From contig NZ_WWIA01000440.1 in the NCBI RefSeq assembly GCF_009870065.1, forward strand, positions 1 to 35,782: a stretch of DNA of 35,782 bases, given 5' to 3'. The DNA is from Streptomyces sp. SID5785 (GTDB lineage: Bacteria > Actinomycetota > Actinomycetes > Streptomycetales > Streptomycetaceae). The notes under the pieces are model-generated. The model was not told where the DNA came from. It made no database searches and worked only from the letters and a program-made list of their open reading frames with translations. The translations under genes were made by a program, and so were the position numbers. Of the stretch, positions 1,876-4,184 are shown piece after piece. Numbering within the stretch: the first letter of the stretch is position 1; every line of letters starts with the position of its first letter.

Positions 1876-1928
1876 GGCGGTCACACAGAAGAGAAGCGCG
1901 CCGGAGAACGGAAGAACAGGAGACGGGA

Positions 1929-1945
1929 ATACCCCCAGGGGGTAT
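1929..1945 (+). promoter_or_regulatory. CsoR-like palindromic operator over the DUF4396 promoter
   Basis: ATACCCCC-A-GGGGGTAT is a perfect inverted repeat with 8-bp arms and a 1-bp centre. Runs of C and G flanked by ATA/TAT are the hallmark of CsoR/RcnR-family sites (copper, nickel or cobalt derepression). A -10-like TATGGT (1945-1950) abuts the right arm, so a bound repressor would cover the -35/-10 region. The DUF4396 ATG lies 46 bp further on, after a GGGGGAA ribosome-binding site. The palindrome is seen directly; assignment to CsoR rests on similarity to known actinobacterial sites. Confidence 0.7.
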
Positions 1946-1991
1946 ATGGTTCACACTGTCGGCAGGAACCGCTCCGGACACTGGGGGAACC

Positions 1992-2510
1992 ATGCAGCAC
2001 GGGACGCACGCCGGCCACGACCACAGCGCGCACGGGCACGAGCACCACGGGCCGGGCCACGGCGGCACGGGGCGGGTCAGCTGGGCCACGGCCGCGCAGG
2101 CGACGCTGCACTGCCTCATCGGCTGCGCCATCGGCGAGGTGCTCGGCATGGTCGTCGGCACCGCACTCGGCTGGGGCAACCTGCCGACGATGGTCCTCGC
2201 GATCGCGCTCGCGTTCCTCTTCGGCTACTCGCTCACCCTGCGCGGTGTACTCAAGGCGGGCCTGGACCTCAAGGCAGCCTTCCGGGTCGCGCTCGCCGCG
2301 GACACCCTGTCGATCGCGGTCATGGAACTGATCGACAACGGCGTGATCGCCCTGTGGCCGGACGCCATGGACGCGCACCTGTCGGACGGCCTGTTCTGGG
2401 GCGCGCTGGCCGCGTCCCTCGCGCTCGCCTTCGCCGTCACGACGCCGGTGAACCGCTGGATGATCGGCCGCGGCAAGGGGCACGCGGTGGTGCACCAGTA
2501 CCACCACTGA
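1992..2510 (+). CDS. His-rich DUF4396 membrane protein, probable metal homeostasis
   Basis: The 172-residue protein opens with a histidine-rich tail: nine His in the first 23 residues, in HxH, HxHH and GHDH patterns. Four hydrophobic helices follow: about 34-58 (containing HCLIGC), 62-85, 91-115 and 130-155. The C-terminus is also His-bearing (VVHQYHH). This matches the uncharacterised DUF4396 family. The first helix carries a Cys pair (HCxxxC) that could coordinate metal within the membrane. The start is ATG 1992, preceded by GGGGGAAC; a longer in-frame extension overlaps nfo and is not supported. The palindromic operator upstream points to derepression by copper or a similar cation. I infer a role in metal binding, export or buffering; the sequence does not show the direction of transport. 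The gene converges on the oxidoreductase gene with 58 bp between the stops. Confidence 0.75.
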   Translation: MQHGTHAGHDHSAHGHEHHGPGHGGTGRVSWATAAQATLHCLIGCAIGEVLGMVVGTALGWGNLPTMVLAIALAFLFGYSLTLRGVLKAGLDLKAAFRVALAADTLSIAVMELIDNGVIALWPDAMDAHLSDGLFWGALAASLALAFAVTTPVNRWMIGRGKGHAVVHQYHH

Positions 2511-3373: not shown

Positions 3374-3853
3374 ATGCAGGGCGACCCCGAGGTCATCGAA
3401 TTTCTCAACGAGCAGCTGACGGCCGAGCTCACGGCCATCAACCAGTACTTCCTGCACGCCAAGATGCAGGAGAACTTCGGCTGGACGAAGCTCGCGAAGT
3501 ACACGCGCTCCGAGTCGATCGACGAGATGAAGCACGCGGAGGTGCTCACCGACCGGATCCTGTTCCTGGACGGGCTGCCCAACTACCAGCGGCTCTTCCA
3601 CGTCCGGGTCGGGCAGTCGGTCACGGAGATGTTCCAGGCGGACCGGCAGATCGAGGTCGAGGCCATCGACCGGCTGAAGCGGGGCATCGAGGTGATGCGC
3701 GCGAAGGGCGACATCACGTCCGCGAACATCTTCGAGTCGATCCTCGAGGACGAGGAGCACCACATCGACTACCTGGACACGCAGCTGGAGCTGGTGGAGA
3801 AGCTCGGCGAGCCGCTCTATCTCGCCCAGGTCATCGAGCAGCCGGAGAGCTGA
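3374..3853 (+). CDS. bfr: Bacterioferritin
   Basis: This 159-residue protein is a full-length, heme-binding 24-mer iron-storage ferritin. All ferroxidase ligands are in the family positions: Glu18, Glu51, His54, Glu94, Glu127 and His130. The inter-subunit heme ligand Met52 is present in DEMKHAE. GGAAGGAG lies 8 bases before ATG 3374, which fixes the start. The partner ferredoxin gene bfd lies just downstream on the opposite strand (40 bp between stops). The pair therefore covers iron loading and release. The 172-bp divergent region upstream contains a loose ACTGG/CCAGT inverted repeat (about 3300-3326), but no iron box that I can recognise. Confidence 0.95.
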   Translation: MQGDPEVIEFLNEQLTAELTAINQYFLHAKMQENFGWTKLAKYTRSESIDEMKHAEVLTDRILFLDGLPNYQRLFHVRVGQSVTEMFQADRQIEVEAIDRLKRGIEVMRAKGDITSANIFESILEDEEHHIDYLDTQLELVEKLGEPLYLAQVIEQPES

Positions 3854-3892
3854 CCACAGCCGGGAAGCCGACCCAGACCGACTCAGGCCGCC

Positions 3893-4132
3893 TCAGGCCG
3901 CCTCGGGCAGCTCGGCCTGCGGGGCGAGCGCGACCGCGCTGCCTCCCTGGTCGACGAGCTCGCGGCGGGGGCACGCGCCCCGGCCGAGCAGCGCCTGGAT
4001 GCGCCGCACGCACGAGCCGCAGTCGGTGCCGGCCTTGCAGGCCGACGCGATCTGGCGGGGGGTGCAGGCGCCGTCCTCCGCGTGCCGCTTGACCTGCGCC
4101 TCGGTGACTCCGAAACAGTTGCAGACGTACAC
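3893..4132 (-). CDS. bfd: Bacterioferritin-associated ferredoxin (Bfd)
   Basis: This is a 79-residue [2Fe-2S] protein. Ligand cysteines are C4 and C6 (VCNCFGVTE) and C38 and C41 (DCGSC), the Bfd-type CxC/CxxC arrangement. Extra cysteines occur at 23, 32 and near residue 54 (GACPRRE). Bfd donates electrons to the heme of bacterioferritin to reduce and mobilise stored iron. The start is GTG 4132 with GGGAGG nine bases upstream. The C-terminal 25 residues are Ala-rich and not part of the fold. The gene faces bfr and has an iron box about 50 bp before its start, consistent with induction when iron is scarce. Confidence 0.93.
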   Translation of the reverse strand: MYVCNCFGVTEAQVKRHAEDGACTPRQIASACKAGTDCGSCVRRIQALLGRGACPRRELVDQGGSAVALAPQAELPEAA

Positions 4133-4184
4133 GCGGGTTCACCTCCCGGTCGGGACTCGTCGATGGCGCCGTCCCGTGGATCGG

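Follow-up and report, generated by a model that had tools for sequence, protein, structure and literature searches.

A DUF4396 membrane protein behind a CsoR-type operator as a candidate component of copper handling in Streptomyces

Introduction

Copper steers differentiation and antibiotic production in Streptomyces, and the published picture of its control, as outlined in the accessible part of PMC6414726, encompasses CopZ/CopA, the repressor CsoR and a storage protein. In S. lividans, the copper CsoR requires a TAC-x9-GTA dyad, and the regulon described for this species and S. coelicolor employs operators with G/C tracts within the dyad, with three named sites located before csoR and before two copZA operons (available sections of PMC3902906). 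The sulfane-sulfur circuit of S. coelicolor (CsoR/CstR, SCO0620) relies on a paralogous repressor that recognizes a similar palindrome, but it differs in its x8 operators, with the sequence ATACC-n6-GGTAT, and in its targets, which are rhodanese and persulfide dioxygenase genes (excerpted text of PMC7533328). Further predicted CsoR targets are cited in the accessible text of PMC6414726 by gene number only (SCO1044, SCO3280, SCO4137, SCO6710, SCO7265), so that a DUF4396 gene with a CsoR site may already figure in a published list. In the open-licence literature, one paper names DUF4396, with no more than its position at the border of a metal-resistance island, and the Pfam accession PF14342 is not named; we therefore know of no tested function of the family in this literature. 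The accessible portion of a paper on the copper proteome of Kineococcus does not name the DUF4396 gene either.

Here, we have analysed a stretch of 35,782 nucleotides from Streptomyces sp. SID5785 (contig NZ_WWIA01000440.1), referred to as the window, in which an earlier note had described a perfect palindrome of CsoR type before the gene of a His-rich DUF4396 membrane protein and had proposed that both form a copper unit. The operator is of the same kind as in the CsoR regulon of S. lividans and S. coelicolor. Like the genes of the P1B copper ATPase CopA and of CopZ, the DUF4396 gene would be regulated by CsoR, and some actinobacteria have it in the same cluster as these, whereas its product, a protein of 172 amino acids with four helices, differs from CopA in carrying neither an ATPase nor an HMA domain.

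Results

Operator and promoter of the DUF4396 gene

The region preceding the gene contains the following features:

1922..1927, + strand: -35 position, GACGGG, 17 bp before the -10 hexamer
1929..1945, strand not applicable: putative CsoR-type operator, 17-bp palindrome ATACCCCCAGGGGGTAT with TAC-x9-GTA spacing, filling the -35/-10 spacer
1945..1950, + strand: -10 hexamer TATGGT (majority in same-locus relatives TACGGT)
1948..1970, strand not applicable: inverted repeat GGTTC...GAACC

The perfect palindrome, ATACCCCC-A-GGGGGTAT, shares its last base with the first T of the -10 hexamer (position 1945) and, since GACGGG and TATGGT are 17 bp apart, it occupies the spacer of the promoter. Its TAC and GTA elements are separated by 9 bp (TAC CCCCAGGGG GTA, 1930-1944), which corresponds to the definition of a type 2 CsoR operator in the available text of PMC3902906. 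Up to three mismatches, it is the sole site of this kind in the window, compared to 0.02 expected from shuffled sequences. Relatives with the gene at the same locus exhibit the majority layout ttgaGG-AA-TACCCC...GGGGTA-TAcGGT, which is clearer than the promoter of the window; its -35 element is ttgaGG instead of GACGGG, and the -35 of this strain is weak.

Directly behind the operator resides an inverted repeat, GGTTCCTG...CAGGAACC, and a GGTT...AACC-type repeat follows the site in 39 of the 56 site-bearing loci that share the deoxyribonuclease IV/oxidoreductase neighbourhood (nfo-type loci). A fold of the corresponding leader RNA predicts only five pairs, one of which shows changes on both sides, and this fold leans towards the repeat since it used 45 of the 56 loci, the other 11 having been left out beforehand as divergent-looking by eye. 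In view of the weak covariation the element may be either a DNA dyad or a hairpin in the 5' leader, and we claim neither a leader hairpin nor a role in DNA.

The gene behind this promoter (1992-2510) encodes the 172-residue protein with nine histidines among its first 23 residues that the earlier note had read from the open reading frame. As also stated there, no copA or copZ gene is found beside it in the window, where its neighbours encode deoxyribonuclease IV, a molybdopterin oxidoreductase and bacterioferritin. A small convergent gene without Pfam match accompanies the downstream bacterioferritin gene (window positions 3374-4140); judging from position and sequence, it probably encodes the bacterioferritin-associated ferredoxin (bfd).

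Conservation of gene and site in the genus

Among 150 Streptomyces genomes, 107 contain a match to the protein and 103 full-length copies, which amount to 117 loci after removal of 20 of the 137 match rows as weak or fragmentary (E above 4.4e-57; of these, L154-L157 were fetched before being dropped, and L153 was dropped as second copy of L007). The gene had been placed in the core genome, which is too strong a term in light of 103 of 150 genomes with a full-length copy: it is common, not universal. A TAC-x9-GTA site, searched up to 500 bp upstream of the codon for residue 30, precedes 105 of the 117 genes, compared to about 0.005 expected per gene from a control with five matches in the remaining 514,852 bases of these loci. 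The palindrome is thus found upstream of most orthologues, where its absence would have spoken against the initial proposal. All 105 sites have x9 spacing, with one locus carrying an additional x8 match, and 98 of the 117 loci display the strict form TACCCCN3GGGGTA. The site is present in both settings of the gene, at 56 of 61 nfo-type loci and at 49 of the 56 genes located elsewhere. As judged by eye, the 12 genes without site include four close behind nfo, two with an apparently decayed site and six with none. These 12 genes, together with the 47 genomes lacking a full-length copy, indicate that the unit is not essential.

Strict x9 sites occur 156 times over 41 genomes, compared to three occurrences of the reversed pattern. 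In the 19 of these genomes for which the sites were fully listed, 42 of 75 sites precede genes of HMA proteins of the copZ/copA type, 18 precede DUF4396 genes and 15 other genes.

Spacing of the operator and identity of the repressor

The spacing of the dyad was compared between 30 loci of copper-type CsoR proteins (with Cys, His and Cys as ligands), 20 copZ-type loci and 20 CstR-like loci. In the latter group, the 19 proteins read have no histidine as the corresponding ligand, the protein of locus L178 not being caught by the motif. A TAC-x9-GTA site is found within 260 bp upstream of 29 of the 30 csoR genes and the remaining locus contains x9 sites at a distance of 1.2 kb; one csoR locus also shows an x10 match and some show additional x9 matches. 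The copZ loci contain x9 sites in all 20 cases. Among the 20 CstR-like loci, 17 contain a site, which is x8 in every case. The difference between x8 and x9 thus seems to separate the two CsoR-type regulons of the genus cleanly. With its x9 spacing, the site before the DUF4396 gene differs from the x8 operators of the CstR regulon and is thus assigned to the copper sensor CsoR instead of its sulfane-sulfur paralogue.

In relatives, the C-H-C residues are present in all 30 top-scoring CsoR proteins that were fetched. Among 40 related genomes, chosen for containing a DUF4396 gene and few contigs, 14 encode a single protein of the CsoR family, and in 11 of them the DUF4396 gene is still preceded by the x9 site; the six of these 14 proteins that were read are all C-H-C copper CsoRs. 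Together, this comparison lets us predict with high confidence that the DUF4396 gene is under the control of the copper CsoR, and the central step of the earlier note, from a CsoR-type operator to a copper unit, is supported by the spacing and by the recurrence of the site before orthologues.

In the genome of the strain itself, the sequence ATACCCCCNGGGGGTAT occurs once in the whole 7,488,674-base (7.49-Mb) assembly, and strict x9 sites number four, which equals the number read before the DUF4396 gene (one), a copA-like gene (two) and a copZ-like gene (one). A csoR gene of the copper (C-H-C) type was not found in this assembly, whose completeness is 93%, and its sole match to the CsoR family is CstR-like. 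As the 2.7-kb csoR region of that relative whose protein is most similar matches the assembly only over stretches of up to 54 bases, we take the missing gene as a probable assembly gap. A 16-bp palindrome with x8 spacing precedes the strain's own rhodanese-CstR-like operon (contig C639, locus L002, about 817-833).

Features of the DUF4396 protein

The coding region and the sequence motifs of the protein are located as follows:

1992..2510, + strand: DUF4396 (PF14342) membrane protein, 172 aa, four helices, predicted N-in/C-in by the positive-inside rule
1992..2081, + strand: His-rich N-tail, residues 1-30, variable, presumably cytosolic
2109..2138, + strand: helix 1 motif H40-C41-x3-C45-x3-E49
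2301..2339, + strand: helix 3 motif D104-T-x-S107-x3-M111-E112-x2-D115-N116
2478..2507, + strand: C-tail GHAxxHxYHH, G163-H172, presumably cytosolic

The protein is a full-length member of its Pfam family (151 bits compared to a cut-off of 27, covering model positions 1-141 of 141), with no other Pfam domain detected up to an E-value of 1 and no matching NCBIfam model. An AlphaFold2 model based on 54 sequences shows four long helices (residues 31-58, 63-88, 93-121 and 133-169) at a mean pLDDT of 81.1 and a pTM of 0.66, with block means of the pLDDT between 84 and 97 over residues 31-160 and of about 50 in both tails. The HCxxxC motif that had been proposed to be intramembrane falls inside predicted helix 1 and contains the only two cysteines of the protein. 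Lysine and arginine are concentrated in the loop between helices 2 and 3 and in the C-tail (on average 3.53 and 3.18 residues compared to 0.03 in each outer loop), and the positive-inside rule thus supports a cytosolic location of this loop and of both ends.

Three motifs, HCx3Cx3E, ADTxSx3MEx2DN and GHAxxH, are present in all 117 Streptomyces orthologues, and in an alignment of 12 members that extends beyond the genus the residues H40, C41, C45, E49, D104, S107, M111, E112, D115, N116, H164 and H168 are invariant. With ideal helix angles, C41, C45 and E49 would point to the same side of helix 1, as would D104, M111 and D115 in helix 3. The invariant acidic residues of helix 3 might likewise take part in a proton path or have a structural function. 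The ligand-rich termini that had been emphasized differ in their conservation: the C-terminus, which in the window ends with the four histidines of HAVVHQYHH, contains the constant GHAxxH, whereas the N-tail varies between 0 and 24 histidines across the 117 relatives, with start codons chosen by script, and contains at least three of them in 113. In some members outside the genus this tail is short and contains at most one histidine, and we consider it the least conserved part of the protein by sequence comparison.

Searches for known relatives returned neither a solved structure related to the protein nor a Foldseek match at E-values up to 0.001. The best VIA-align score (Z 9.4, rmsd 4.0, 123 aligned residues), for the membrane part of dolichyl phosphate mannose synthase, is below the level that is meaningful for helix bundles. 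No transporter family and no clear fold matches the protein, and a transport activity is thus proposed from its motifs. In Pfam searches at E-values up to 1, it lacks the P-type ATPase and HMA domains of P1B-type copper ATPases, and with no DUF326 match and two cysteines in all it does not belong to the Csp/DUF326 copper storage proteins.

Genomic context within and beyond Streptomyces

In many Streptomyces genomes, the DUF4396 gene has genes for deoxyribonuclease IV, the oxidoreductase and bacterioferritin nearby. Since 56 of the 117 genes are located elsewhere and 49 of these keep the site, a partnership with the oxidoreductase and bacterioferritin is unsupported. At 18 of these 56 loci, genes of DUF305, CopA, CopZ, CsoR, DUF6153 or F510_1955 proteins are located within about 2.5 kb, and none of the copper genes sought is found within this distance at the other 38; a DUF326 protein is encoded at seven of the 56. 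In the vicinity of the 61 nfo-type loci, no sought copper gene was found in flanks of 2.5 kb (1.5 kb for 30 of them).

In the phylum, 26 of 246 genomes contain a match to PF14342, 21 of them over the cut-off. Outside the genus, 12 genes of the short type were readable, leaving out the split or partial loci L221 and L222 and the weak matches L223-L227. Nine of the 12 are preceded by a CsoR-like site, one of which is x8, and the three without site are located directly behind csoR (L331, in the order copA-csoR-DUF4396) or behind copZ near copA-csoR (L328, L332). The short subfamily, to which the window protein belongs, is characterized by the ADTxSx3MEx2DN and GHAxxH motifs; at five loci of other DUF4396 types, no CsoR-like site was found, and those proteins that were read lack the motifs.

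Ten plasmid stretches were inspected, one of which carries no annotation. The plasmid of Kineococcus radiotolerans displays the order DUF305-CsoR-CopZ-CopA-DUF4396-F510_1955 and three Streptomyces plasmids the order DUF6153-DUF305-F510_1955-DUF4396. In two plasmids, the next gene after DUF4396 carries the annotation of a four-helix bundle copper-binding protein, which in the one scanned by Pfam is a cysteine-rich DUF326 protein. Two stretches contain no copper gene in their annotated part, in one of them with DUF4396 at the edge of the record, and two are of haloarchaeal origin and encode a longer DUF4396 protein. A DUF305 protein, CopM of Synechocystis, is a copper-binding resistance protein according to the title of PMC4335983.

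Discussion

Comparison of sequences supports the operator and its CsoR type, the conservation of gene and site, the company of copper genes, the motifs and the topology of the DUF4396 protein. As a membrane protein encoded behind what appears to be a copper-responsive DNA switch, it very probably constitutes an undescribed part of the handling of copper excess in soil bacteria. We consider the chances about even that it is a copper-induced membrane protein handling Cu(I), most likely as exporter, which belongs to the copper CsoR regulon as a single-gene unit. At low cytosolic Cu(I), apo-CsoR would be bound to the palindrome between the -35 and -10 elements and block transcription. Upon filling with Cu(I), CsoR would leave the DNA and the protein would be made together with CopZ and CopA. 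Cytosolic histidines, in the C-terminal GHAxxHxYH and in Streptomyces also in the N-tail, could collect copper and pass it into an intramembrane route lined by C41, C45 and E49 (with M53) on helix 1 and by D104, M111, E112 and D115 on helix 3, from where Cu(I) would be moved out of the cytosol, possibly by an oligomer and coupled to protons. In this sequence of events, the binding of CsoR, the induction by copper, the binding of copper by the protein and the direction of its transport are what we infer. Somewhat more tentatively, the short DUF4396 subfamily might define a new ATP-independent class of small actinobacterial Cu(I) exporters, with a Cys2-Glu/Asp intramembrane path and induced by CsoR in parallel to CopZ/CopA.

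Export is our first choice, with a membrane-bound copper relay or buffer in second place. Such a protein would not transport but serve as membrane-anchored Cu(I) buffer or chaperone, which binds the ion at its His/Cys sites and passes it to CopA or to a DUF326 storage-type protein. We regard this as unlikely, though as the most serious of the alternatives, as it would account for the His-rich tails and for copZ-DUF4396 and DUF326 neighbours and finds a parallel in the membrane-anchored chaperone CupA of Streptococcus (described in the accessible part of PMC7558416). Yet, the N-tail varies, whereas the residues buried in helices 1 and 3, among them several acidic ones, are found in all 117 orthologues, which exceeds the needs of a tethered buffer. 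A role in the making or protection of copper enzymes or in membrane-associated thiol redox chemistry, with HCx3C as redox or copper-delivery site, appears improbable: the strict conservation of the Cys pair in 117 of 117 proteins and CsoR-type sites upstream of multicopper oxidases in two genomes would agree with it, but the copper genes nearby are mostly tolerance genes (DUF305, CopA, CopZ, DUF326) and control by CsoR signals copper excess, not enzyme supply.

We have also considered that the palindrome could serve a CstR-like sulfane-sulfur repressor, the protein thus acting in sulfur stress, which the adjoining molybdopterin oxidoreductase, resembling sulfite oxidase, would fit. In the assembly, the CsoR family is represented by a CstR-like protein alone, and the rhodanese operon of the strain lies behind a similar palindrome. 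However, the 17 CstR-like loci with a site are all x8 compared to x9 in the window, the site persists in 11 of 14 genomes with a single CsoR-family protein, with all six proteins read being copper CsoRs, and three of the 12 genes outside the genus are accompanied by copA and csoR. We thus reject this very improbable assignment on account of operator spacing and of genomes without a CstR-like protein. That the palindrome arose by chance before an unrelated housekeeping membrane protein has next to no probability, since, even if G-rich DNA gives rise to some C/G tracts, the low numbers expected in the window and per gene and the conservation of the site before orthologues in several contexts refute it.

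With a predicted copper CsoR unit as preferred reading, the site before 105 of 117 DUF4396 genes suggests that the published account of copper control probably lacks a membrane component. The operator provides the DUF4396 family with a direct and testable role, and the alignment points to residues for mutation.

Further occurrences of the family and of the operator

On the haloarchaeal plasmids (L317, L318), the genes of the longer DUF4396 proteins have DUF302, SHOCT, cupredoxin or heavy-metal-associated genes in their vicinity, and the family may thus have a broader connection to metals. DUF4396 genes are also contained in a 40-kb record from human faeces labelled as bacteriophage (MT835530.1) and in a 310-kb IMG/VR contig (L320), both of which may include host DNA. 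Besides the genes described above, strict x9 sites are located upstream of multicopper oxidases (two genomes), of DUF998 membrane proteins (two) and, in one case, of a DUF326 protein convergent with DUF4396 (among loci L346, L349, L345, L353 and L356). In three genomes, more than one x9 site each precedes MFS transporter-like genes with similar N-termini (L347, L350, L352, with the Pfam assignment made for L350).
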